A stretch of 64,000 nucleotides of DNA from Streptococcus respiraculi (GTDB lineage: Bacteria > Bacillota > Bacilli > Lactobacillales > Streptococcaceae), in assembly GCF_003595525.1 (NCBI RefSeq), contig NZ_CP022680.1:1576001-1640000 (forward strand). The letters run 5' to 3'. The notes under the pieces were generated by a model that saw only the letters and a list, made by a program, of their open reading frames with translations, was not told where the DNA came from and did no database searches. Shown here one piece after another: positions 14,472-61,270 of this stretch. Position 1 is the stretch's first letter. Every line of letters starts with the position of its first letter. The position numbers and the translations under genes are program-made.

Positions 14472-14631
14472 AGAACCTGTATTCATAGCGAAGTCATTCT
14501 AATCGGGAGCTTATTTTACGATCATCAAGGCGTTTTTTTGAAGGAATACTGACTGTATTTCGAAAAAAAGCAACGATGAGTAGCGAAAAATAAGCCCTGA
14601 ATAGAGTTGCTGAGTTGTGAATACAGGTTCT
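14472..14631. repeat. 160-bp palindromic repeat element, copy 1
   Basis: Ends AGAACCTGTATTCA and TGAATACAGGTTCT form 14-bp terminal inverted repeats. Inside, GAGCTTATTTT pairs with AAAATAAGC and GCGTTTTTTTGAA with TTCGAAAAAAAGC, so the whole element folds into one long imperfect hairpin. No coding capacity. Copy 2 is at 30356-30516 (about 95% identical by eye), and single ends lie at 26932-26945 and 38528-38541. The structure fits a miniature inverted-repeat transposable element. Confidence 0.85.
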
Positions 14632-26914: not shown

Positions 26915-26931
26915 CCTTCAAGACTAGCTTA

Positions 26932-26945
26932 GAATACAGGTTCTT
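26932..26945. repeat. Solo end of the 160-bp repeat element
   Basis: GAATACAGGTTCT matches the right terminal repeat of the elements at 14472 and 30356, without the rest of the element. It overlaps the pyrE stop codon. Confidence 0.6.
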
Positions 26946-27573
26946 AATCCTGCCAAGTTTCTTGATTTTCTTTAAATTTCTTCAACAAGGTCAAGCCGTC
27001 CGCATTGATGTAGCCTTGGACCTTGGCAACTTTGATGAGTTCGCTATAGTTTGATAGGGTCACCAGTTTGACACCAGCCTCTTCAAAGTTGGCATCTGCC
27101 TTTGGCAATTCATAGGTGAAAATGGCCACCACACCTAGCACATCTGCCCCTTCACGTTCTGCAGCTGCTACAGCATCTAGCACTGAACCACCCGTCGAAA
27201 TCAAGTCCTCAATCACGACCATTTTTTGCCCCTTGACAATACGACCTTCTACCTGATTCCCCGCTCCATGGTCTTTTGGTTTGCTACGAATATAAGCAAA
27301 TGGCAAGTTCATTCTGTCTGCAATAATCGCTCCGTGAGGAATTCCTGCAGTTGCCGTTCCTGCAATCACTTCTACTTCAGGAAATTCTTCTTTGATTTTT
27401 TCAACAAAACCATTTTCAATCAAGGTACGTGTGTCTGGATAAGAAAGCGTAATCCGATTATCTGTGTAAATTGGTGATTTAATACCAGATGCCCAAGTAA
27501 ATGGCTCTTCTGGTTGCAAATATACTGCCTTAATATCGAGCAAGTGTGCTGCAATTTCTCTTGATAATGTCAT
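26944..27573 (-). CDS. pyrE: Orotate phosphoribosyltransferase
   Basis: A 209-residue type I phosphoribosyltransferase that joins orotate and PRPP to give OMP. The PRPP loop [16 protein letters not shown] lies at about residues 120-135. A catalytic flexible loop is seen in [15 protein letters not shown] (about 94-108). The final bases coincide with a solo end of the 160-bp repeat, which supplies the stop codon. It follows pyrF at 27 bases and uses its promoter and attenuator. Confidence 0.96.
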
Positions 27574-28296: not shown

Positions 28297-28312
28297 TCAT
28301 TCTTCCTTTCTA

Positions 28313-28405
28313 CAAAAATAACCTTGTCCACAACTAGACAAGGTTACACGAAAAGAAGGGCAAGCCCCCGCTTTTACCATGAACACCTTTCTAGCCTCTC
28401 TGGAC
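28313..28405 (-). promoter_or_regulatory. PyrR-type attenuator ahead of pyrFE
   Basis: Minus strand: CAGTCCAGAGAGGCT (about 28408-28393) is the PyrR-binding anti-antiterminator loop. About 50 bases later comes the terminator TAACCTTGTC-loop-GACAAGGTTA (28346-28319) followed by TTTTTG. When UMP/UTP is high, PyrR binding favours the terminator. Confidence 0.85.
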
Positions 28406-28454
28406 TGAGTTAAAGGTTTTATCGGATGTTTACTGTTTGCATTCTACTACACAC

Positions 28455-28486: not shown

Positions 28487-30225
<1,739 letters not shown>

Positions 30226-30237
30226 GTTTCCTCCTAC

Positions 30238-30550
30238 AAAAAATAACCCTGCCAAGGGGCAAGGTTACACGAAAAGAATGAGAACATGGACCTTCCAAAC
30301 CGACAGACCTGCTTTGGTCTAACAAACAGCTTGGTACGGAAATCGCTCGTCTCTTAGAACCTGTATTCATAAGCGAAGTAATTCTAATCGGGAGCTTATT
30401 TTACGATAATCAAGGCGCTTTTTTGAAGGAATACTGACTGTATTTCGAAAAAAAGCAACGATGAGTAGCGCAACATAAGCCCTGAATAGAGTTGCTGAGC
30501 TGTGAATGCAGGTTCTTTATATCTGTATTCGCCTTTTTTGCCTCTCTGGA
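30238..30550 (-). promoter_or_regulatory. PyrR-type attenuator ahead of pyrKD, interrupted by a repeat
   Basis: Minus strand: the PyrR loop TCCAGAGAGGC is at 30550-30540. The terminator AACCCTGCC-type stem (30266-30245) followed by TTTTTT is at 30238-30266, and TTTTCGTGTAACCTTG just before it matches the pyrFE leader. In pyrFE these parts are about 50 bases apart; here the 161-bp repeat element (30356-30516) and extra sequence separate them. Whether PyrR control still works is open. Confidence 0.75.
30356..30516. repeat. 160-bp palindromic repeat element, copy 2
   Basis: The same terminal repeats (AGAACCTGTATTCA at left, TGAATGCAGGTTCT at right) and the same internal palindrome as copy 1 at 14472. 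About eight differences by eye. It is inserted within the pyrKD leader between the PyrR loop and the terminator. Confidence 0.85.
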
Positions 30551-30576
30551 CTCAATTAAAGGTTTTGTTATTGTGC

Positions 30577-30605
30577 ATTATACATTTTTCGCCTTTTTTT
30601 GTCAA
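30577..30605 (-). promoter_or_regulatory. Sigma-A promoter of pyrKD
   Basis: Minus strand TTGACA (30605-30600), 17 bases, TATAAT (30582-30577). It overlaps the upstream region of the divergent LysR gene. Confidence 0.9.
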
Positions 30606-30624: not shown

Positions 30625-31536
30625 ATGAGAATCCAACAATTACACTACATCATTAAAATTGCTGAGACAGGTAGCATGAACGAAGCTGCCAAACAACTCT
30701 TCATCACCCAGCCGAGCTTATCAAACGCCGTCCGTGATTTGGAACGAGAAATGGGAATCGAGATTTTCTATCGCAATCCCAAGGGTATTACCCTGACACG
30801 AGACGGTATGGAGTTTCTCTCCTATGCTCGTCAGGTGGTCGAACAGACCGAACTCTTAGAAGAACGCTATAAAAATCCCGGTGCCAAGCGCCAGCTTTTT
30901 AGTGTGTCTTCTCAGCACTACGCCTTTGTCGTCAACGCCTTTGTTTCCCTCCTCAAAGAGACTGACATGGAAGATTACGAGCTTTTCTTGCGGGAAACAC
31001 GGACCTGGGAAATTATCGACGACGTCAAAAATTTCCGCTCTGAAATCGGCGTCCTCTTTCTCAACAGCTTTAACCGAGATGTCCTGCTTAAGATGCTCGA
31101 TGACCATCGTTTGAGTCACACCCATCTCTTTACTGCACGCCCCCATGTCTTTGTCAGCAAGACCAATCCTCTAGCCAAAAAGTCGCTGATTACCCTAGAA
31201 GACTTGACAGATTTTCCATATCTAAGCTATGAGCAAGGGATTCACAATTCCTTCTACTTCTCAGAAGAAATTCTTTCACAAGAGCACCACAAAAAATCCA
31301 TTGTCGTGTCTGACCGTGCCACCCTCTTTAATCTCCTAATCGGTCTCAACGGCTACACGATTGCAACAGGGATTTTAAATTCCAATCTAAACGGTGATAA
31401 CATCGTCTCCATTCCGCTTGATTACGACGACGAGATTGAATTGGTCTATATTCAGCACGAAAAAACCATTCTCTCTGAAATGGGAGAAAAATTCATCAAC
31501 TACCTCCTTGATGAGGTCAAATTCGATACACACTGA
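30625..31536 (+). CDS. LysR-family regulator (CysR/MtaR-like paralogue)
   Basis: A 303-residue LysR regulator with a helix-turn-helix at residues 1-60 (MRIQQLHYIIKIAETGSMNE, FITQPSLSNAVRDLE) and an effector-binding domain. It is a clear paralogue of the regulator at 2633: both carry QPSLS.(S/N)(A/I)VRDLE and a SSQHY motif near residue 95. Relatives in streptococci control sulfur amino acid genes, but the target here is not shown. It diverges from pyrKD, whose promoter lies within 50 bases. No RBS; the start codon lies at the predicted transcription start. Confidence 0.7.
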   Translation: MRIQQLHYIIKIAETGSMNEAAKQLFITQPSLSNAVRDLEREMGIEIFYRNPKGITLTRDGMEFLSYARQVVEQTELLEERYKNPGAKRQLFSVSSQHYAFVVNAFVSLLKETDMEDYELFLRETRTWEIIDDVKNFRSEIGVLFLNSFNRDVLLKMLDDHRLSHTHLFTARPHVFVSKTNPLAKKSLITLEDLTDFPYLSYEQGIHNSFYFSEEILSQEHHKKSIVVSDRATLFNLLIGLNGYTIATGILNSNLNGDNIVSIPLDYDDEIELVYIQHEKTILSEMGEKFINYLLDEVKFDTH

Positions 31537-38483: not shown

Positions 38484-38527
38484 GTTTCTTCCTCTTTTTC
38501 TATTCTTCAATCCTATTTGCTACTCTT

Positions 38528-38541
38528 AGAACCTGTATTCA
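38528..38541. repeat. Solo end of the 160-bp repeat element
   Basis: AGAACCTGTATTCA is identical to the left terminal repeat of the elements at 14472 and 30356. Nothing else of the element follows. It lies in the leader of the binding-protein gene. Confidence 0.65.
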
Positions 38542-49945: not shown

Positions 49946-52900
49946 TTATGATTCCTCATCTTTTTTAGCTTTGCGTGAAGCTAGGCTTGTAAGGGCTACG
50001 AGACCTACGATTCCTAAGCCGTATGGCAGTGCCTTATCTTCCTCACTACCAGTTCTTGGTAACATGAGATGTTTAGGATGAACCGAGATTCGTTTAGCCG
50101 GTACACCTTGACGTGGGCTGTCTTGGTCGCCACCCTTAGAGCCGCCTTGGTGGTCGCCACCCTTAGAGCCGCCTTGGTGATCGCCACCTTTAGAGCCGCC
50201 TTGGTGGTCACTACCCTTAGAGCCGCCTTGGTGATCGCCACCTTTAGAGCCGCCTTGGTGATCGCCACCTTTAGAGCCGCCTTGGTGATCGCCACCTTTA
50301 GAGTCGCCTTGGTGGTCACTGCCCTTAGAGTCGCTATGCTGATCATCACCCTTGTTTTGATCTGAATCGCCACCATTTGTAGCAGATGGTTTGCTTGATG
50401 GGTCTTTCGCATCAGTGCCTGCTTTTTTCTCATCGCCGTCAGACACACCATCTCCATCGGTATCTGGGTTGTTGATGTCAGTACCGTTTTGAAGTTCTTC
50501 ACCGTTGGTTATACCATCATTATCATCATCACCTTCGAGATCGAGGACTGGTTTATCTGGAGTTTCGATACCTGTTCCAGTGTCATGATTTGGCTTACTA
50601 GTTGCAGCTTTTGGATCCGTTCCTTTGGCAACTTCCTCGCCGTCATTTACGCCGTCACCATCTGAATCTGCTTTAGTCGGATCTGTACCAAGTTCTTTTT
50701 CCTTACCATCAGTTAAACCATCGCCGTCGGTGTCAGTCTTCAATGGGTCAGTACTGTCTTGTTTCTCAACACCATCTTCAACACCATCACCGTCAGTGTC
50801 ATGGTTGAGTGGATTTGTTCCATCTTGTTTTTCTTGGCCATCTTCAACTCCGTCCCCGTCGGTATCGTGTTTCAATGGGTCAGTATTATTGACTTTTTCT
50901 TCACCATCTGATAGACCATCACCATCTGTGTCAGACTTAAGTGGATCCGTATTATCAACTTTCTCATCGCCATCGCTTACACCGTCACCATCTGTGTCGA
51001 CTTTAGTATAATCGGTACCGTTTTGAAGTTCTTCACCATTTGTAACACCATCATTGTCATCGTCTTCATCTAACTTCAAGACTGGCTTATCCGGAGTTTC
51101 GATACCTGTTCCAGTGTCATGATTTGGCTTACTAGTTGCAGCTTTTGGATCCGTTCCTTTGGCAACTTCCTCGCCATCGTTCACACCATCTCCATCGCTA
51201 TCAGCTTTCAACGGATCAGTTCCAAGGTCTTTTTCCTTACCGTCAGATAGACCGTCTTCATCGCTGTCGGATTTCAATGGGTTAGTGCCAGCAGCTTTTT
51301 CATCGCCGTCTGATACACCATCACCATCGGTATCATGGTTGAGTGGGCTTGTTCCATCTTGTTTTTCTTGGCCATCTTCAACTCCGTCACCGTCTGTATC
51401 GTGTTTCAATGGATCAGTATTATTGACTTTTTCTTCACCATCTGATAGACCATCACCATCTTCAACACCATCACCGTCAGTGTCATGGTTGAGTGGATTT
51501 GTTCCATCTTGTTTTTCTTGGCCATCTTCAACTCCGTCCCCGTCGGTATCGTGTTTCAATGGGTCAGTATTATTGACTTTTTCTTCACCATCTGATAGAC
51601 CATCACCATCTGTGTCAGACTTAAGTGGATCCGTATTATCAACTTTCTCATCGCCATCGCTTACACCGTCACCATCTGTGTCGACTTTAGTATAATCGGT
51701 ACCGTTTTGAAGTTCTTCACCATTTGTAACACCATCATTGTCATCGTCTTCATCTAACTTCAAGACTGGCTTATCCGGAGTTTCGATACCTGTTCCAGTG
51801 TCATGATTTGGCTTACTAGTTGCAGCTTTTGGATCCGTTCCTTTGGCAACTTCCTCGCCATCGTTCACACCATCTCCATCGCTATCAGCTTTCAACGGAT
51901 CAGTTCCAAGGTCTTTTTCCTTACCGTCAGATAGACCGTCTTCATCGCTGTCGGATTTCAATGGGTTAGTGCCAGCAGCTTTTTCATCGCCGTCTGATAC
52001 ACCATCACCATCGGTATCATGGTTGAGTGGGCTTGTTCCATCTTGTTTTTCTTGGCCATCTTCAACTCCGTCACCGTCTGTATCGTGTTTCAATGGATCA
52101 GTATTATTGACTTTTTCTTCACCATCTGATAGACCATCACCATCTGTGTCAGACTTAAGTGGATCCGTATTATCAGCTTTCTCATCGCCATCGCTCACAC
52201 CGTCACCATCTGTATCTGCTTTCAACGGATCTGTACCAAGTTCTTTTTCCTTGCCATCAGATAGACCGTCACCGTCGGTATCAGATTTAGCTGGATCAGT
52301 GCCGTCTTTGGCTTCGTCCTCATCAGACACGCCATCGTTGTCGCTGTCTTTTGGTGTTTCAGTTGGAGTGCTAGTTATTGCTTTTGGATCAGAACCTTTG
52401 TCTACTTCCTCGCCATCGTTCACACCATCACCGTCGGTATCAGCTTTCAACGGATCGGTTCCTAGCTCTTTTTCTTTACCATCAGATAGACCATCGCCAT
52501 CTGAATCTGCTTCATTTGGATTAGTGCCGTCTTTGGCTTCGTCCTCATCAGACACGCCATCGCCGTCGCTATCTTTCGGTGTTTCAGTTGGTTTGCTAGT
52601 TATTGCTTTTGGATCAGAACCTTTGTCTACTTCCTCGCCATCGTTTACGCCGTCACCATCTGAATCTGCTTTAGTCGGATCTGTACCAAGTTCTTTTTCC
52701 TTACCGTCAGATAGACCATCGCCGTCTGAATCTGACTTCAATGGATCAGTGCCGTTAGCTTTTTCATCACCATCATTTACACCGTCGCCATCTGAATCTG
52801 CTTCATTTGGATTAGTACCATCTTTGGCTTCATCTTCATCAGATACGCCATCGTTGTCGCTGTCTTTCGGTGTTTCAGCTGGTTTGCTAGTCGCAGCTTT

Positions 52901-55900
52901 TGGATCAGAACCTTTGTCTACTTCCTCGCCATCGTCCACACCATCGCCGTCAGTATCAGCTTTCAACGGATCGGTACCAAGTTCTTTTTCCTTGCCATCA
53001 GATAGACCATCTCCGTCTGAATCTGCTTTAGCTGGATCGGTGCCGTTGGTCTTTTCATCGCCGTCGTTAACACCGTCACCATCAGTATCTGCTTTCAATG
53101 GATCGGTGCCGTTGGTTTTCTCATCACCGTCATTTACACCATCGCCATCAGTATCTGCTTTCAATGGATCGGTGCCGTTGGTTTTCTCATCACCGTCATT
53201 TACACCATCGCCATCTGAATCTGCTTCATTTGGATTAGTACCATCTTTGGCTTCATCTTCATCAGATACGCCATCGTTGTCGCTGTCTTTTGGTGTTTCG
53301 GCTGGTTTGCTAGTCGCAACTTTCGGATCAGAACCTTTGTCTACTTCCTCGCCATCGTTCACACCATCACCATCGGTATCAGCTTTCAACGGATCGGTAC
53401 CAAGTTCTTTTTCCTTGCCATCAGATAGACCATCGCCATCGCTATCAGATTTCAATGGATCAGTGCCGTTGGTCTTTTCATCGCCGTCGTTAACACCGTC
53501 ACCATCAGTATCTGCTTTCAATGGATCGGTGCCGTTGGTTTTCTCATCACCGTCATTTACACCATCGCCATCTGAATCTGCTTCATTTGGATTAGTACCA
53601 TCTTTGGCTTCGTCTTCATCAGATACGCCATCGTTGTCGCTATCTTTCGGTGTTTCAGTTGGTTTGCTAGTCGCAACTTTTGGATCAGAACCTTTGTCTA
53701 CTTCCTCGCCATCGTTCACACCATCACCGTCTGTATCTGCTTTAGTCGGATCCGTACCAAGTTCTTTTTCTTTACCATCAGATAGACCATCGCCATCGCT
53801 GTCAGATTTCAGTGGGTCGGTGCCATCGGCTTTTTCATCACCATCATTTACACCATCGCCATCACTATCAGCTTTCAATGGATCGGTGCCGTTAGCTTTT
53901 TCATCACCGTCATTTACACCATCGCCATCGCTATCAGATTTCAATGGATCGGTGCCATTAGCTTTTTCATCACCGTCATTTACACCGTCACCATCGCTGT
54001 CAGATTTCAGTGGATCGGTGCCGTTGGCTTTTTCATCACCGTCATTTACACCGTCGCCATCGCTATCAGATTTCAGTGGATCGGTGCCGTTGGTTTTCTC
54101 ATCACCGTCGTTAACACCATCGCCATCGCTATCAGATTTCAATGGATCGGTGCCGTTAGCTTTTTCATCGCCGTCGTTCACACCGTCGCCATCGCTATCA
54201 GATTTCAATGGATCGGTGCCGTCGGCTTTTTCATCACCGTCATTTACACCATCACCATCTGAATCTGCTTCATTTGGATTGGTACCATCTTTAGCTTCGT
54301 CTTCATCAGACACGCCATCGCCGTCGCTATCTTTCGGTGTTTCAGTTGGTTTGCTAGTCGCAACTTTCGGATCAGAACCTTTGTCTACTTCCTCGCCATC
54401 GTTCACACCATCACCATCGGTATCTGCTTTCAACGGATCTGTACCAAGTTCTTTTTCCTTGCCATCAGATAGACCATCGCCATCGCTATCAGATTTCAAT
54501 GGATCAGTGCCGTTGGTCTTTTCATCGCCGTCGTTAACACCGTCACCATCAGTATCTGCTTTCAATGGATCGGTGCCGTTGGTTTTCTCATCACCGTCAT
54601 TTACACCATCGCCATCTGAATCTGCTTCATTTGGATTAGTACCATCTTTGGCTTCGTCTTCATCAGATACGCCATCGTTGTCGCTATCTTTCGGTGTTTC
54701 AGTTGGTTTGCTAGTCGCAACTTTTGGATCAGAACCTTTGTCTACTTCCTCGCCATCGTTCACACCATCACCGTCTGTATCTGCTTTAGTCGGATCCGTA
54801 CCAAGTTCTTTTTCTTTACCATCAGATAGACCATCGCCATCGCTGTCAGATTTCAGTGGGTCGGTGCCATCGGCTTTTTCATCACCATCATTTACACCAT
54901 CGCCATCACTATCAGCTTTCAATGGATCTGTGCCGTTAGCTTTTTCATCACCGTCATTTACACCATCGCCATCTGAATCTGCTTCATTTGGATTAGTACC
55001 ATATTTGGCTTCGTCTTCATCAGATACGCCATCGTTGTCGCTGTCTTTCGGTGTTTCGGCTGGTTTGCTAGTCGCAACTTTCGGATCAGAACCTTTGTCC
55101 ACTTCCTCGCCATCGTCCACACCATCGCCGTCAGTATCAGCTTTCAACGGATCGGTACCAAGTTCTTTTTCCTTGCCATCAGATAGACCATCGCCGTCTG
55201 AATCTGACTTCAATGGATCTGTGCCGTTGGTCTTTTCATCGCCGTCGTTCACACCATCACCATCGGTATCTGCTTTCAACGGATCGGTACCAAGTTCTTT
55301 TTCTTTACCATCAGATAGACCATCGCCATCTGAATCTGCTTCATTTGGATTAGTACCATCTTTGGCTTCGTCTTCATCAGATACGCCATCGTTGTCGCTG
55401 TCTTTTGGTGTTTCGGCTGGTTTGCTAGTCGCAACTTTCGGATCAGAGCCTTTGTCTACTTCCTCGCCATCGTTCACACCATCACCATCGGTATCTGCTT
55501 TCAACGGATCGGTACCAAGTTCTTTTTCCTTACCGTCAGATAGACCATCGCCATCGCTATCAGATTTCATTGGATCTGTGCCGTTGGTCTTTTCATCGCC
55601 GTCATTTACACCATCGCCATCTGAATCTGCTTTAGATGGATCGGTGCCATCAGCTTTTTCATCACCATCATTTACACCGTCGCCATCTGAATCTGCTTCA
55701 TTTGGATTAGTACCATCTTTGGCTTCATCTTCATCAGATACGCCATCGTTGTCGCTGTCTTTCGGTGTTTCAGCTGGTTTGCTAGTCGCAACTTTCGGAT
55801 CAGAACCTTTGTCTACTTCCTCGCCATCGTTCACACCATCACCATCGGTATCTGCTTTCAACGGATCTGTACCAAGTTCTTTTTCTTTACCATCAGATAG

Positions 55901-58900
55901 ACCATCGCCGTCTGAATCTGACTTCAATGGATCAGTGCCGTTAGCTTTTTCATCGCCGTCATTTACACCATCGCCATCTGAATCTGCTTTCAATGGATCG
56001 GTGCCGTCGGCTTTTTCATCACCGTCATTGACACCGTCACCATCTGAATCAGCTTTAGATGGATCAGTGCGATCTGCGATTTCCTGATCATCTGATACGC
56101 CATCGCCATCTGAATCTGACTTCAATGGATCGGTGCCATCGGCTTTTTCATCACCGTCATTTACACCGTCGCCATCGCTATCAGATTTCAATGGATCGGT
56201 GCCAAGTTCTTTTTCCTTGCCATCAGATAGACCATCGCCGTCTGAATCTGACTTCAATGGATCGGTGCCGTTAGCTTTCTCATCACCGTCGTTCACACCA
56301 TCGCCATCTGAATCTGACTTCAATGGATCGGTACCGTCAGCTTTTTCATCGCCGTCGTTCACACCATCGCCATCTGAATCTGACTTCAATGGATCGGTAC
56401 CATCAGCTTTTTCATCGCCGTCATTTACACCATCGCCATCGCTATCAGATTTCAATGGATCGGTGCCATTAGCTTTTTCATCACCGTCATTTACACCGTC
56501 ACCATCGCTGTCAGATTTCAGTGGATCGGTGCCGTTGGCTTTTTCATCACCGTCATTTACACCGTCGCCATCGCTATCAGATTTCAGTGGATCGGTGCCG
56601 TTGGTTTTCTCATCACCGTCGTTAACACCATCGCCATCTGAATCAGCTTTAGATGGATCAGTGCGATCTGCGATTTCCTGATCATCTGATACGCCATCGC
56701 CATCCGTATCTTTATTAGCATCGTGAATAATCTCAACTGGAACATTTACTATTTCCTTAGAGCCATCACCGTATGTAACTTCAACTGGAACTGTATGCTC
56801 ACCGACTGTAGTTGGAACATCGCTCTTCAATTCCTTGTTAGTAATTTCAGCACCGGCTGGGGTTGGAATAGCATTCTTGATGTCATCTTCCGTAACGCCT
56901 TCGGTTTTTGGCTTGGTAACCTTGTTAGCAGTTGGTTCATATTTCTCGTTGTCGGCTACCTTAGTGATTTCAACTGGAACATTAACTGTATCTTTGGTGC
57001 CATCGCCGTATGTAACTTCAACTGGAACTGTATGCTCACCTACAGTAGTTGGAACATCACCTTTGAGCTCTTTATTGGTAATTTCTGCACCGGCTGGTGT
57101 CGGAATGGCATTCTTGATGTCATCTTCCGTAACGCCTTCGGTTTCTGGTTTGCTTACCTTGTTAGCAGTTGGTTCATATTTCTCGTTGTCGGCTACCTTG
57201 GTAATGGTAACAGGAACATTTACTGTATCTTTAGTACCATCACCGTATGTAACTTCAACAGGAACTGTATGCTCACCGACAGTAGTTGGAACATCGCTCT
57301 TCAATTCCTTGTTGGTAATTTCAGCACCGGCTGGTGTCGGAATGGCATTCTTGATGTCATCTTCCGTAACGCCTTCGGTTTCTGGTTTGCTTACCTTAGT
57401 AGCTGTTGGGTCGTATTTCTCGTTATCATCTACCTTGGTAATCTCAACAGGAACGTTAACCGTGTCTTTGGTGCCATCACCGTATGTAACTTCTACTGGT
57501 ACTGTGTGTTCACCGACTGTAGTTGGAACATCACTCTTCAATTCCTTGTTGGTAATTTCTGCACCAGCTGGTGTCGGAATAGCATTCTTGATGTCATCTT
57601 CCGTAACGCCTTCAGTTTCTGGTTTGCTTACCTTGTTAGCAGTTGGTTCATATTTCTCATTGTCGGCTACCTTGGTAATGGTAACAGGAACATTTACTGT
57701 ATCTTTAGTACCATCACCGTAGGTGACTTCTACTGGGACTGTATGCTCACCTACAGTAGTTGGAACATCACTCTTCAATTCCTTGTTGGTAATTTCAGCA
57801 CCGGCTGGTGTCGGAATGGCATTCTTGATGTCATCTTCCGTAACGCCTTCAGTTTCTGGTTTGCTTACCTTAGTAGCTGTTGGGTCGTATTTCTCGTTGT
57901 CGGCTACCTTGGTAATGGTAACAGGAACATTCACTGTATCTTTAGTACCATCACCGTATGTAACTTCAACAGGAACTGTATGCTCACCGACTGTAGTTGG
58001 AACATCACTCTTCAATTCCTTGTTAGTAATTTCAGCACCATCTGGTGTTGGAATAGCATTCTTGATGTCATCTTCCGTAACGCCTTCGGTTTCTGGTTTG
58101 CTTACCTTGTTAGCTGTTGGTTCATATTTCTCGTTGTCGGCTACCTTGGTAATGGTAACAGGAACATTCACTGTATCTTTAGTACCATCACCGTATGTAA
58201 CTTCAACTGGAACTGTATGCTCACCGACTGTAGTTGGAACATCACCTTTGAGCTCTTTGTTGGTAATTTCAGCACCATCTGGTGTTGGAATAGCATTCTT
58301 GATGTCATCTTCCGTAACACCCTCAGTTTCTGGTTTGCTTACCTTATTCGCTGTTGGCTCATATTTCTGGTTATCATCTACCTTGGTAATCTCAACAGGA
58401 ACATTAACCGTATCTTTAGTGCCATCGCCATACGTTACAACAACTGGTACTGTTGTTTCACCTACTGCGGTTGGTAATTCTCCTTGGATAGCTTTATCTG
58501 TGATGGTCGCTCCATCTGGTGTCGGAATAGCATTCTTGATGTCATCTTCCGTAACGCCTTCGGTTTCTGGCTTGGTCACCTTGTTAGCAGTTGGTTCGTA
58601 TTTCTCGTTGTCGGCTACCTTAGTGATTTCAACTGGAACATTAACTGTATCTTTAGTACCATCGCCGTATGTAACTTCAACAGGAACTGTATGATTGCCA
58701 ACTGTGGTTGGAACATCACCTTTGAGCTCTTTGTTGGTAATTTCAGCACCGGCTGGGGTCGGAATGGCATTCTTGATGTCATCTTCCGTAACGCCTTCGG
58801 TTTCTGGTTTGCTTACCTTGTTAGCAGTTGGTTCGTATTTCTCGTTGTCGGCTACCTTGGTAATGGTAACAGGAACATTTACTGTTTCCTTAGTACCATC

Positions 58901-61270
58901 GCCATAGGTCACTTCAACAGGAACTTCATAGTTTCCGATTTCGGTTGGAAGAGTACCTTTGATCTCCTTGTTGGTAATTTCTGCGCCGTTTGGAGCAGTA
59001 ATAGCGTTCTTGATATCGTCTGCCGTTAGTGGACTAGTTTCTGGGGCACTAAGTGATGTAATATTTGGATCAAATTGATCTCTATCTGGAACTTCAAATA
59101 TCTCTACTGGTACCTTAACTGTTTCCTTAGAACCATCGCCATAGGTCACTTCAACAGGAACTTCATAGTTTCCGATTTCGGTTGGAAGAGTACCTTTAAT
59201 CTCCTTGTTGGTGATTTCTGCACCGTCTGGAGCAGTAATGGCATTTTTGATGTCGTCTGCTGTAACAGAGGCATTCTCTGGGACACGAAGTGATGTAATA
59301 TTCGGATCAAACTGGTCCTTATCAGACGGATAATTTACAACAACCGTCACAATCTTTTCTTGCCCACTTGGAGTAGTTAATTTGACATATACCGAATTGT
59401 TCTTACCTTTTGTTGGTAGGGTAGTGGTTGGTTGTGCAGTAGCAACATCAGCCGAATCAACGATTTCAGCTTGGATTTGATCTCTTGTGATGTTGTATCC
59501 AACATTTCCATCTGCTTCCGTTGTGGTACCAAGGTAGTTTTCAAATACCTTATCCTTGATTTCTTGCTCAGTAACTGTTTGATTTGCCTGCTTTTCAATC
59601 GGACTTGCTGGATTAGTTACACGTAAGGCTGCAATCTTAAACTTCTCAGAAACCGCCTCTTGGTTGGAAGAACTAGTCTCTGCAACAGCTCGAACCGTGT
59701 AGTATGGAAGAGCATTTGTATTTGGGAAATGGTGAATAATATTCCCTCTACCAAAGGTAACTCGGCTCTTATCTTCTGGCTGCGTGAAATTCACTACATC
59801 GTCATGTACAAATGCTTGTGGATCATTCGGATCGCCCTTACCTCCGGTCAAATGAAGACCAGTAATCGGACGTTCACTCGCAGCTGTAATCGTTCCTGTC
59901 GTAAATTCTTTGGTCGTTGGTGTATCTTCCCAAACAAAATAATTTTCAAAATTTGTCGCCTTCGCTACTGCCGTAATCGTAACGGGCACAGTCAATTCAT
60001 CCCTTGTCTCATCTGCGTATGTCACGACAACTGGCACTTCATAATCTCCAGGTGCACTTGGAAGTGTTGTGCCTTCTTTGAGCGTAACGGTACCATTTCC
60101 CTTGTTAATTACAGCACCAGTCACATCAGCTTCTGTCAACCCACCTTCTGGACGCGTCACACGAGAAGCGGTTGGATTGTAGCGGAGGTTATCCGGCATT
60201 GGAACAGCTCGAGTACTTCCCATAATACGGTTAAATGGATTGGCTACACCACTTGATGTCATACCAGCTAAGAATGGTAAATCTTCTTTAAGATTATCTG
60301 GAATTTCTGCAGTTACAACCATTCTATATGCATTGTCACCACCACCTGTTTCCCAAGAAGCATAGACTGCTCCCATTTTGTCCTTAACGTTGCTATCAAG
60401 AAATCCTGTTAACGCTTCATCCCCACGGGAGACACGAGTCCCCCATTCTCTGTCAAATTTTCCATTTTCTCTCGAACCAACAAAACGGCTATTGGTGCTT
60501 TTATCAAAATCATTCGGATTAACAGACCATCTGTGAGACCATTCATGCCCATAGCCATTTCGACCATCATATTTTGCAATCGAATCAATGATCACACCTT
60601 TTGGCACAGCAAAGTAGATAAGTGGTCTAGTGTTCCATTGCTCATTACTAAGGTTATACTTAATATCCCAAACAACTGAGCGTTTCCCAGTTCTTGGATC
60701 TGTCAGGATTCTTTGATCATATACAACGGAACGTTCAACGTAGTTCGTACCATCTTCGCTTCTTGCTCTTAAACCTTTGGTATTGGCTAACTTGAAGTTC
60801 CCATTGTCTTCTACACTAGCTGCACGGAAGCCTGTTCCTTCTGGAATTGACTCTGCTGCATGGACAAGTTTTGCCCCTTCAATGACATAGGTTGCACCAT
60901 TGTAAACAATTGTTGCAGCCCCATCAGAAGCGATAGTGACCATTTCTGCTGTTAATTCAGGATTAGCCTTTAAGACACGTTTTAGAACACGCTCACGGTC
61001 ATCGTCTGTTAAGTTGGAACTATCTGCCACACTGACTTGTTCCGGTTCTTTGGGTACAAATTCTCCTGTGGATAGAGTAATTTCAGATGCAGCATTGCCC
61101 AATGCCTTATCGCTTTCGCTGACAATTGTTGCAACAACATCTGAAATGACCGACTCTGGAGTTTCAGCTGATACCGTTGGTACACCGATAATGGCAGCCC
61201 CTAAAAATACAGAAAAAACTCCAATCTTAAACTTTCTTATTGAAAATCGTTCTTGTCGTTTAAAAAACAT
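49946..61270 (-). CDS. Giant YSIRK/LPXTG surface protein with Rib and TSP3 repeats
   Basis: A 3774-residue sortase-anchored wall protein. Order: YSIRK-type signal (FSIRKFKIGVFSVFLG, cut after VSA near 35); an N-terminal region to about 355 with no family I can name, probably ligand-binding; a Rib-like module (about 359-437) and a linker; 11 Rib/alpha-type modules of 79 residues (about 650-1518); roughly 2100 residues of thrombospondin type 3 repeats (about 1519-3620; DSDGDGVNDGDEKANGTDP and variants), which bind calcium through DxDxDG loops; a repeated GGDHQGGSK segment (about 3640-3720); LPRTG at 3737-3741, a hydrophobic span and the tail SRKAKKDEES. RBS AAGGAG. The likely role is a long calcium-stiffened stalk carrying an adhesin; this is inferred. 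Confidence 0.93.
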   Translation of the reverse strand: MFFKRQERFSIRKFKIGVFSVFLGAAIIGVPTVSAETPESVISDVVATIVSESDKALGNAASEITLSTGEFVPKEPEQVSVADSSNLTDDDRERVLKRVLKANPELTAEMVTIASDGAATIVYNGATYVIEGAKLVHAAESIPEGTGFRAASVEDNGNFKLANTKGLRARSEDGTNYVERSVVYDQRILTDPRTGKRSVVWDIKYNLSNEQWNTRPLIYFAVPKGVIIDSIAKYDGRNGYGHEWSHRWSVNPNDFDKSTNSRFVGSRENGKFDREWGTRVSRGDEALTGFLDSNVKDKMGAVYASWETGGGDNAYRMVVTAEIPDNLKEDLPFLAGMTSSGVANPFNRIMGSTRAVPMPDNLRYNPTASRVTRPEGGLTEADVTGAVINKGNGTVTLKEGTTLPSAPGDYEVPVVVTYADETRDELTVPVTITAVAKATNFENYFVWEDTPTTKEFTTGTITAASERPITGLHLTGGKGDPNDPQAFVHDDVVNFTQPEDKSRVTFGRGNIIHHFPNTNALPYYTVRAVAETSSSNQEAVSEKFKIAALRVTNPASPIEKQANQTVTEQEIKDKVFENYLGTTTEADGNVGYNITRDQIQAEIVDSADVATAQPTTTLPTKGKNNSVYVKLTTPSGQEKIVTVVVNYPSDKDQFDPNITSLRVPENASVTADDIKNAITAPDGAEITNKEIKGTLPTEIGNYEVPVEVTYGDGSKETVKVPVEIFEVPDRDQFDPNITSLSAPETSPLTADDIKNAITAPNGAEITNKEIKGTLPTEIGNYEVPVEVTYGDGTKETVNVPVTITKVADNEKYEPTANKVSKPETEGVTEDDIKNAIPTPAGAEITNKELKGDVPTTVGNHTVPVEVTYGDGTKDTVNVPVEITKVADNEKYEPTANKVTKPETEGVTEDDIKNAIPTPDGATITDKAIQGELPTAVGETTVPVVVTYGDGTKDTVNVPVEITKVDDNQKYEPTANKVSKPETEGVTEDDIKNAIPTPDGAEITNKELKGDVPTTVGEHTVPVEVTYGDGTKDTVNVPVTITKVADNEKYEPTANKVSKPETEGVTEDDIKNAIPTPDGAEITNKELKSDVPTTVGEHTVPVEVTYGDGTKDTVNVPVTITKVADNEKYDPTATKVSKPETEGVTEDDIKNAIPTPAGAEITNKELKSDVPTTVGEHTVPVEVTYGDGTKDTVNVPVTITKVADNEKYEPTANKVSKPETEGVTEDDIKNAIPTPAGAEITNKELKSDVPTTVGEHTVPVEVTYGDGTKDTVNVPVEITKVDDNEKYDPTATKVSKPETEGVTEDDIKNAIPTPAGAEITNKELKSDVPTTVGEHTVPVEVTYGDGTKDTVNVPVTITKVADNEKYEPTANKVSKPETEGVTEDDIKNAIPTPAGAEITNKELKGDVPTTVGEHTVPVEVTYGDGTKDTVNVPVEITKVADNEKYEPTANKVTKPKTEGVTEDDIKNAIPTPAGAEITNKELKSDVPTTVGEHTVPVEVTYGDGSKEIVNVPVEIIHDANKDTDGDGVSDDQEIADRTDPSKADSDGDGVNDGDEKTNGTDPLKSDSDGDGVNDGDEKANGTDPLKSDSDGDGVNDGDEKANGTDPLKSDSDGDGVNDGDEKADGTDPLKSDSDGDGVNDGDEKADGTDPLKSDSDGDGVNDGDEKANGTDPLKSDSDGDGLSDGKEKELGTDPLKSDSDGDGVNDGDEKADGTDPLKSDSDGDGVSDDQEIADRTDPSKADSDGDGVNDGDEKADGTDPLKADSDGDGVNDGDEKANGTDPLKSDSDGDGLSDGKEKELGTDPLKADTDGDGVNDGEEVDKGSDPKVATSKPAETPKDSDNDGVSDEDEAKDGTNPNEADSDGDGVNDGDEKADGTDPSKADSDGDGVNDGDEKTNGTDPMKSDSDGDGLSDGKEKELGTDPLKADTDGDGVNDGEEVDKGSDPKVATSKPAETPKDSDNDGVSDEDEAKDGTNPNEADSDGDGLSDGKEKELGTDPLKADTDGDGVNDGDEKTNGTDPLKSDSDGDGLSDGKEKELGTDPLKADTDGDGVDDGEEVDKGSDPKVATSKPAETPKDSDNDGVSDEDEAKYGTNPNEADSDGDGVNDGDEKANGTDPLKADSDGDGVNDGDEKADGTDPLKSDSDGDGLSDGKEKELGTDPTKADTDGDGVNDGEEVDKGSDPKVATSKPTETPKDSDNDGVSDEDEAKDGTNPNEADSDGDGVNDGDEKTNGTDPLKADTDGDGVNDGDEKTNGTDPLKSDSDGDGLSDGKEKELGTDPLKADTDGDGVNDGEEVDKGSDPKVATSKPTETPKDSDGDGVSDEDEAKDGTNPNEADSDGDGVNDGDEKADGTDPLKSDSDGDGVNDGDEKANGTDPLKSDSDGDGVNDGDEKTNGTDPLKSDSDGDGVNDGDEKANGTDPLKSDSDGDGVNDGDEKANGTDPLKSDSDGDGVNDGDEKANGTDPLKADSDGDGVNDGDEKADGTDPLKSDSDGDGLSDGKEKELGTDPTKADTDGDGVNDGEEVDKGSDPKVATSKPTETPKDSDNDGVSDEDEAKDGTNPNEADSDGDGVNDGDEKTNGTDPLKADTDGDGVNDGDEKTNGTDPLKSDSDGDGLSDGKEKELGTDPLKADTDGDGVNDGEEVDKGSDPKVATSKPAETPKDSDNDGVSDEDEAKDGTNPNEADSDGDGVNDGDEKTNGTDPLKADTDGDGVNDGDEKTNGTDPLKADTDGDGVNDGDEKTNGTDPAKADSDGDGLSDGKEKELGTDPLKADTDGDGVDDGEEVDKGSDPKAATSKPAETPKDSDNDGVSDEDEAKDGTNPNEADSDGDGVNDGDEKANGTDPLKSDSDGDGLSDGKEKELGTDPTKADSDGDGVNDGEEVDKGSDPKAITSKPTETPKDSDGDGVSDEDEAKDGTNPNEADSDGDGLSDGKEKELGTDPLKADTDGDGVNDGEEVDKGSDPKAITSTPTETPKDSDNDGVSDEDEAKDGTDPAKSDTDGDGLSDGKEKELGTDPLKADTDGDGVSDGDEKADNTDPLKSDTDGDGLSDGEEKVNNTDPLKHDTDGDGVEDGQEKQDGTSPLNHDTDGDGVSDGDEKAAGTNPLKSDSDEDGLSDGKEKDLGTDPLKADSDGDGVNDGEEVAKGTDPKAATSKPNHDTGTGIETPDKPVLKLDEDDDNDGVTNGEELQNGTDYTKVDTDGDGVSDGDEKVDNTDPLKSDTDGDGLSDGEEKVNNTDPLKHDTDGDGVEDGQEKQDGTNPLNHDTDGDGVEDGDGLSDGEEKVNNTDPLKHDTDGDGVEDGQEKQDGTSPLNHDTDGDGVSDGDEKAAGTNPLKSDSDEDGLSDGKEKDLGTDPLKADSDGDGVNDGEEVAKGTDPKAATSKPNHDTGTGIETPDKPVLKLDEDDDNDGVTNGEELQNGTDYTKVDTDGDGVSDGDEKVDNTDPLKSDTDGDGLSDGEEKVNNTDPLKHDTDGDGVEDGQEKQDGTNPLNHDTDGDGVEDGVEKQDSTDPLKTDTDGDGLTDGKEKELGTDPTKADSDGDGVNDGEEVAKGTDPKAATSKPNHDTGTGIETPDKPVLDLEGDDDNDGITNGEELQNGTDINNPDTDGDGVSDGDEKKAGTDAKDPSSKPSATNGGDSDQNKGDDQHSDSKGSDHQGDSKGGDHQGGSKGGDHQGGSKGGDHQGGSKGSDHQGGSKGGDHQGGSKGGDHQGGSKGGDQDSPRQGVPAKRISVHPKHLMLPRTGSEEDKALPYGLGIVGLVALTSLASRKAKKDEES
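50105..50345 (-). repeat. 27-bp repeats encoding GGDHQGGSK
   Basis: About eight near-identical 27-base units code for nine residues each, rich in Gly, His, Gln and Asp, just before the LPRTG motif. Variants GSDHQ and HSDSKGSDHQGDSK start the array. Confidence 0.85.
50400..56730 (-). repeat. TSP3 calcium-binding repeat array
   Basis: Tandem units of mostly 66 bases (22 residues) with interspersed longer units containing EEVDKGSDPKVATSKPAETPK. On the order of 90 DxDxDGxxD loops are present. Long stretches are identical at the DNA level, showing recent amplification. Confidence 0.9.
50775..52142 (-). repeat. 684-bp tandem duplication inside the TSP3 array
   Basis: The segments 50775-51458 and 51459-52142 match at an offset of exactly 684 bases over all parts I compared. 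The junction gives the irregular residue string GVEDGDGLSDGEEK, where one repeat lost its middle. 684 is 228 codons, so the frame is kept. Confidence 0.8.
56735..59325 (-). repeat. Eleven 237-bp Rib-type repeats
   Basis: Eleven 79-residue modules, each running from D(N/K/R)(E/D/Q)(K/Q)(Y/F) to VPV.I. Modules 5-11 are almost identical to each other; the two outermost (first in the protein) are more divergent, as expected of an array growing at its inner end. Confidence 0.9.

Follow-up and report, generated by a model that had tools for sequence, protein, structure and literature searches.

A palindromic MITE within the PyrR attenuator of pyrKD in Streptococcus respiraculi: a switch more likely retuned than broken

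The window analysed here is a stretch of 64,000 nucleotides of the S. respiraculi genome (G000:C1:1576001-1640000, where G000 denotes the source genome; relatives without a strain name are likewise given by handle), and the source genome lies near S. cuniculi, S. azizii and S. acidominimus. Among the genes of the window are pyrK, pyrD, pyrF and pyrE, for each of which at least one NCBIfam model scored above its cut-off. The pyrKD leader region occupies positions 30238-30605 and is read on the minus strand. The features are as follows, in window coordinates.

30600-30605, minus strand: -35 hexamer TTGACA of the pyrKD promoter, by consensus scan (found in eight of eight clade loci)
30577-30582, minus strand: -10 hexamer TATAAT, by consensus scan
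30532-30562, minus strand: PyrR-binding (anti-antiterminator) hairpin with a CCTTT/AAAGG stem, by sequence and folding
30540-30550, minus strand: PyrR loop TCCAGAGAGGC, by sequence
30523-30543, minus strand: 5' half of the antiterminator, AGGCAAAAAAGGCGAATACAG, predicted to pair with 30258-30279 in the nascent fold
30516-30518, minus strand: AAA adjoining the element, by alignment a decayed target duplication for which TAA is expected
30357-30515, minus strand: palindromic MITE copy 2, GAACC...GGTTC, 159 bp, one end-to-end hairpin, by sequence and folding
30354-30356, minus strand: TAA target duplication (TTA on the plus strand), by sequence
30280-30353, minus strand: remaining spacer with a hairpin of its own, by folding and comparison
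30258-30279, minus strand: 3' half of the antiterminator, ATTCTTTTCGTGTAACCTTGCC, overlapping the 5' arm of the terminator, by folding and alignment
30238-30268, minus strand: intrinsic terminator and T run, by terminator scan and sequence
29452-30225, minus strand: pyrK, dihydroorotate dehydrogenase electron transfer subunit, ATG at 30225 (NF000797, 454.6 bits, cut-off 270)
28487-29455, minus strand: pyrD, dihydroorotate dehydrogenase (NF005574, 429.1 bits, cut-off 269)
28312-28420, minus strand: PyrR attenuator of pyrFE, intact, internal control (Rfam RF00515, 64.7 bits)
14473-14630, minus strand: element copy 1, by sequence; site filled also in S. cuniculi CCUG 65085, G213, G069 and G304

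The two hexamers of the pyrKD promoter match the consensus at 12 of 12 positions, with a 17-bp spacer. A LysR-type regulator gene (30625-31536) is divergent from pyrKD and is adjacent to it in the eight clade loci as well as in G023, G126 and G091; its best NCBIfam match is CidR, at 78 bits far below the cut-off of 415. On the plus strand, the element end and the adjoining leader (30502-30532) form a terminator-like hairpin followed by CTTTTTT, directed towards this gene. Elsewhere in the window, an open reading frame of 3774 aa (49946-61270) runs across repeats spaced 66 and 237 bp, and its product is probably a surface protein.

The pyrKD leader has a hairpin with a TCCAGAGAGGC loop and an intrinsic terminator before pyrK, and the genome has a gene for PyrR (G000:C1:1574032-1574544, 223 bits against a cut-off of 138) about 1.5 kb to the left of the window. 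Folding prediction adds a mutually exclusive antiterminator that overlaps both the PyrR hairpin and the terminator, and the RF00515 model has its parts in the same order, a PyrR hairpin, then a middle hairpin, then the terminator. In S. pneumoniae D39 the same genes stand under the same kind of switch, with a PyrR site and a terminator in the pyrKDb leader, validated by its luciferase response to uridine (PMC6212727). What distinguishes the present leader from D39 pyrKDb and from the RF00515 model is that its antiterminator loop is filled by a mobile element; the leader scores only 36.6 bits against the gathering cut-off of 54, and the model puts the 3' half wrongly into the element. However, intact pyrK leaders of relatives also fall slightly below gathering (50.6 bits in G014 and 49.9 in G016), so the low Rfam score is not damning on its own. 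The initial annotation had taken the pyrFE leader as an intact internal control, and its Rfam match bears this out. By its sequence, the pyrKD leader belongs to the PyrR-type transcription attenuators and has a 159-bp MITE inserted in its antiterminator loop, which confirms the earlier claim, coordinates included, that an element copy lies between the PyrR loop and the pyrKD terminator. The element is placed between the antiterminator strands, themselves a folding prediction, and outside the PyrR loop, the pairing strands and the terminator. The leader measures 333 nt, compared with 104-109 nt in 10 of 11 hand-chosen leaders of other Streptococcus groups and 202 nt in the eleventh (G006).

The inserted repeat belongs to a family with 60 matches in the whole genome, comprising about 20 long copies and ends-only forms of about 55 bp (eight examined in one set, with further ones elsewhere in the genome). 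The 159-bp element is a near-perfect palindrome with terminal inverted repeats, and its ends read GAACCTGTATTCA. Of the 37 long copies scored, which come from seven genomes, 30 are flanked on both sides by identical 3-bp TAA or TTA, a count that is not made up entirely of independent cases since some copies are one site in different genomes. Scoring covered 37 of 44 rows, leaving out L014 and L019, which equal copy L007, and the mis-trimmed L015, L016, L017, L020 and L021. L007 itself is a copy nested within another, with a TTA duplication. The flanks of the pyrK-site copy are AAA/TAA, and at the position of the AAA the leaders of S. cuniculi WM131, CCUG 65085 and G304 have TAA. RUP, a repeat taken up again below, has TA as its target. 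None of the 20 long copies lies within an open reading frame of at least 100 aa. The family was detected in 36 of 284 genus genomes (E <= 1e-25), and the element is 95-96% identical in G069, G057 and G304, while PyrK of G069 and G057 is only 64-65% identical. By these features of its sequence the palindromic repeat is a MITE. An end search found 112 end-like matches; among the wide end pairs noticed by eye, the one that was read, a 1.36-kb pair at 593-594 kb with its ORFs judged by eye, yielded no recognisable helper transposase and no parental IS was found. The literature matches listed include no paper on this element.

Several other traces of the family were seen. At 26929-26946 of the window there is a 12-bp remnant of an element end, GAATACAGGTTC, with TTA on either side, the second TTA being the pyrE stop codon on the opposite strand; this remnant is likely a scar. 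A single element end, TTAGAACCTGTATTCA, is found at 38526-38541, with no partner end seen within 240 bases, and bigger composite variants of about 500 bp, which enclose repeated sequence of another kind, occur at G000:C1:234000-234520 and 1722758-1723253. A copy at G000:C1:374194 was considered as a second case inside a PyrR leader, that of what we take to be a uracil permease gene, and was rejected because the copy lies about 1.8 kb downstream, beyond a gene presumably S15-like from its translation, and hence outside that attenuator. When 20 of the 30 copy loci were scanned with cmscan for other leaders hit by the element, only a tRNA came up at gathering scores.

Comparison with relatives showed that occupancy of the pyrK site varies within the clade. 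The initial annotation had allowed that all relatives might carry the same sequence as part of a conserved leader, but four of the eight clade leaders (G213, S. azizii, Streptococcus sp. LYSM12 and S. acidominimus) are element-free. Two have the long element in the same orientation (G000 and WM131) and two a short one (G304 and CCUG 65085), which in CCUG 65085 stands in the other orientation. The PyrR loop, both antiterminator strands and the terminator are recognisable with small changes in all eight aligned leaders, occupied or empty; the PyrR hairpin is unchanged apart from one substitution in LYSM12, and the antiterminator 5' strand has a 5-base deletion in WM131 and altered bases in CCUG 65085. 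Spacer positions 30272-30342 of G000 are 97% identical over 71 bp in the element-free G213, whose leader is on that alignment a natural empty control for the source leader. The possibility that the 3' spacer is a second mobile element was rejected, as it is present in two of 284 genus genomes, one time each. Long spacers were also seen outside the clade: loci L137 and L138 (G057 and G069), with their diverged pyrK, have a PyrR-like loop, GTCCAGAGAGACTT, followed by a long spacer that showed no element end, and in L050 (G006) and L067 (G020), pyrK leaders of other Streptococcus, unrelated long spacers stand between the PyrR loop and the terminator, so that loop expansion happened more than once.

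How the site came to be filled in some leaders and not in others can be read in different ways. A tree of pyrK and lysR gave six lineages in a star-like, unresolved arrangement, three of them with an occupied site, and joined WM131 with CCUG 65085 and G304 with G213, so that sister genomes differ in occupancy: long against short and inverted in the first pair, short against empty in the second. The element of G000 is 94.4% identical to that of WM131, although pyrK differs at 66 of its 109 fourfold sites. These observations would suit a true transposition hotspot, at which the insertions in G000 and WM131 arose independently and not as one old insertion homogenised by gene conversion or swapped by stem-loop exchange. 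On the other hand, three near-full-length copies were found in the two S. cuniculi genomes, and G000 is occupied at each of their sites (pyrK, copy 1 and L012, with long flanks in agreement), and the copy 1 site is occupied in five genomes, which would hardly be expected from independent hits and speaks for old insertions. We therefore consider a hotspot somewhat unlikely. The high identity of the element at the pyrK site could reflect gene conversion, stem-loop replacement as in IS1272 or repeated insertion.

The effect of the element on the switch was approached by folding. The survey of pyrK leaders took in 30 loci, three of them without the searched loop motif, with 27 leaders of other Streptococcus; 11 of these 27, chosen by hand, entered the folding sets, and nine of the 11 were used for full-length balance. 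All energies are equilibrium predictions with crude multiloop terms, and co-transcriptional kinetics lie outside the model. The element RNA is predicted to form one end-to-end hairpin of -50.7 kcal/mol, against a shuffle mean of -26.8 (z -6.5; none of 200 shuffles reached this stability). In the predicted fold of the nascent leader the antiterminator strands pair, and the element and the spacer hairpin stand as branches between them. Antiterminator closure, defined as the free energy lost once pairing between both strands is forbidden, is -4.94 kcal/mol in the native G000 leader and -7.44 after removal of the element, the strands still pairing in its presence; reversal of the element leaves the value at -4.94. 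With 60 shuffled elements in its place the mean was -1.2 (sd 1.31; one of 60 as strong as native), and with 60 random window segments of equal length it was -1.35 (0 of 60), or about -1.3 kcal/mol over both sets with one in 120 as strong as the native element. Thus the palindrome is predicted to cost about 2.5 kcal/mol, where an arbitrary insert of equal length costs about 6. The WM131 leader behaved alike (native -6.03, empty -8.75, shuffled -2.57 with three of 60 as strong). The predicted cost of the element in closure ranged over 0.6-2.7 kcal/mol. Closure in the other 17 leaders ranged from -3.64 to -13.55, so that native G000 falls inside this range.

Shuffling of the whole spacer extended this result to leaders without the element. 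Shuffles as strong as native numbered 2/40 in G000, 2/40 in WM131, 1/60 in CCUG 65085, 2/60 in G304, 0/60 in G213, 0/60 in S. azizii, 1/60 in LYSM12, 0/40 in S. acidominimus and 1/60 in G006. The native spacer beat nearly all shuffles in each of these nine leaders although the spacers are largely unlike, and S. acidominimus and G006, whose long spacers lack this element, gave the same outcome. Part of the whole-spacer effect may come from spacer bases that extend the antiterminator stem, from which the element-only shuffles are free. From the nine leaders, the antiterminator loop seems to be kept self-closing, which a palindromic MITE would seem to achieve at once.

Full-leader balance in the absence of PyrR was predicted to lie towards termination in the occupied leaders (+2.65 in G000, +1.46 in WM131, +1.61 in CCUG 65085 and +1.44 in G304) and towards antitermination in the empty clade leaders (-1.38 in G213, -1.31 in S. 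azizii, -3.96 in LYSM12 and -1.77 in S. acidominimus), these values being few and not independent. Balances from -9.0 to +0.9 were obtained for nine leaders of other Streptococcus groups and the pyrFE leader, of which three lay slightly above zero. Removal of the element in silico changed the balance of the four occupied leaders by 0.6, 2.9, 1.3 and 1.1 kcal/mol; in G000, +2.07 of the +2.65 persisted, so that this share does not come from the element. The model thus predicts that the element shifts the balance towards termination by 0.6-2.9 kcal/mol, the opposite of an escape from control, and the switching range of the occupied leaders could be reduced.

A balance of +2.65, a closure lowered by 2.5 kcal/mol and the five bases missing from the antiterminator 5' strand of WM131 might be taken as signs of a switch broken by the insertion, in which the antiterminator forms too late and the terminator wins, so that pyrKD would be constitutively low or expressed from elsewhere. 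We regard this as quite unlikely, since the antiterminator strands and the terminator remain recognisable in G000, WM131, CCUG 65085 and G304, the reading frames of pyrK and pyrD are open and score above their family cut-offs, element removal alters the balance of the full-length G000 leader by only 0.6, and nascent closure in G000 falls among the values of other streptococcal leaders. The folding is more readily reconciled with a pyrKD switch that is retuned, and retuning is more likely than breakage. Of the two outcomes offered in the initial annotation, the one in which the hairpin keeps the two halves close and preserves switching is favoured, as a prediction, by the folding controls and by the survival of both halves in all four occupied leaders, though WM131 has lost five bases. 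The other outcome, uncoupling of pyrKD from uridine nucleotide control, was not borne out, as the predicted balance goes towards termination and not towards escape.

Uncoupling could also be imagined through a promoter within the element, or through lost termination, that makes pyrKD constitutive. One weak promoter-like match (TTCAAA-18-TAAAAT, 9/12) does occur within the element, on the strand of pyrK, but two promoter-like sites in the region compare with 1.2 expected in shuffles, and a transcript started internally, lacking the antiterminator 5' strand, would still meet the intact terminator. This reading is highly improbable, and uncoupling by an internal promoter or terminator was rejected given that weak match and the lack of any minus-strand terminator-like site in the element. 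Since the element RNA is a long near-perfect hairpin, its main effect might instead be on RNA processing, with RNase III cutting the hairpin and altering the life of the pyrKD mRNA rather than attenuation; cleavage of Correia elements is cited as background in PMC3049150. As the main effect this is very unlikely, and processing could act together with an effect on attenuation.

The closest precedent is another small streptococcal repeat within a leader RNA, a BOX element of the pneumococcal trp leader, which has a T-box riboswitch on either side; regulation seems to survive there, and the authors of that work reason that the parts fold largely independently (PMC3049150). The difference is that BOX lies between two switches, whereas the MITE described here lies within one, between strands that must pair. 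The MITEs RUP and SPRITE and the S. suis RepSU1 and BOX repeats are likewise below 200 bp as a rule, multicopy and bounded by terminal inverted repeats, and RUP and BOX also have target duplications, here 3 bp of TAA or TTA; RUP, BOX and RepSU1 are set beside our element by description rather than by sequence (PMC3049150). A different parallel is IS1272 of Staphylococcus aureus, for which stem-loop-replacing transposition has been described, a palindrome-ended element replacing a stem-loop at the same spot (PMC5678879). Stem-loop replacement of that kind would explain the swap between long and short forms at the pyrK site, but according to the same source new IS1272 insertions have no target duplication and carry a transposase gene, unlike the MITE with its 3-bp duplications and no transposase recognised. 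Among the literature matches listed, none describes a PyrR attenuator with a MITE in it, and as far as those matches go, two things are new: an insertion that separates the strands which pair in a single attenuator, and a natural allele series at such a place.

In the retuned switch that we favour, the transcribed MITE would snap into a single end-to-end hairpin and, since it folds on itself, would add only one extra branch to the multiloop of the antiterminator, so that both switch strands could still pair. The attenuator would still answer to PyrR-UMP with a set point shifted modestly to termination, and the interval between synthesis of the PyrR site and the termination decision would be longer. 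Going by the folding of the nine leaders, the spacer loop may be a tolerated place for landing or exchange if the inserted DNA self-folds. We hold it to be fairly likely that the MITE-carrying pyrKD attenuator keeps its PyrR response with such a modest shift and that self-folding inserts are tolerated in the loop. More tentatively, and with some doubt on our part, the antiterminator loop might be an evolvable docking site open to self-closing DNA only; palindromic MITEs would be admitted since each adds no more than a further hairpin branch, and arrival, shortening, flipping and loss of a MITE would retune set point and decision time between sister lineages and leave the working parts untouched. 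The empty, short, long and flipped forms found in close relatives constitute a natural allele series of one attenuator, on which it can be measured directly how loop insertions affect transcription attenuation. The case also suggests a reason why bacterial leaders might tolerate palindromic repeats, whose length the folded RNA would conceal.
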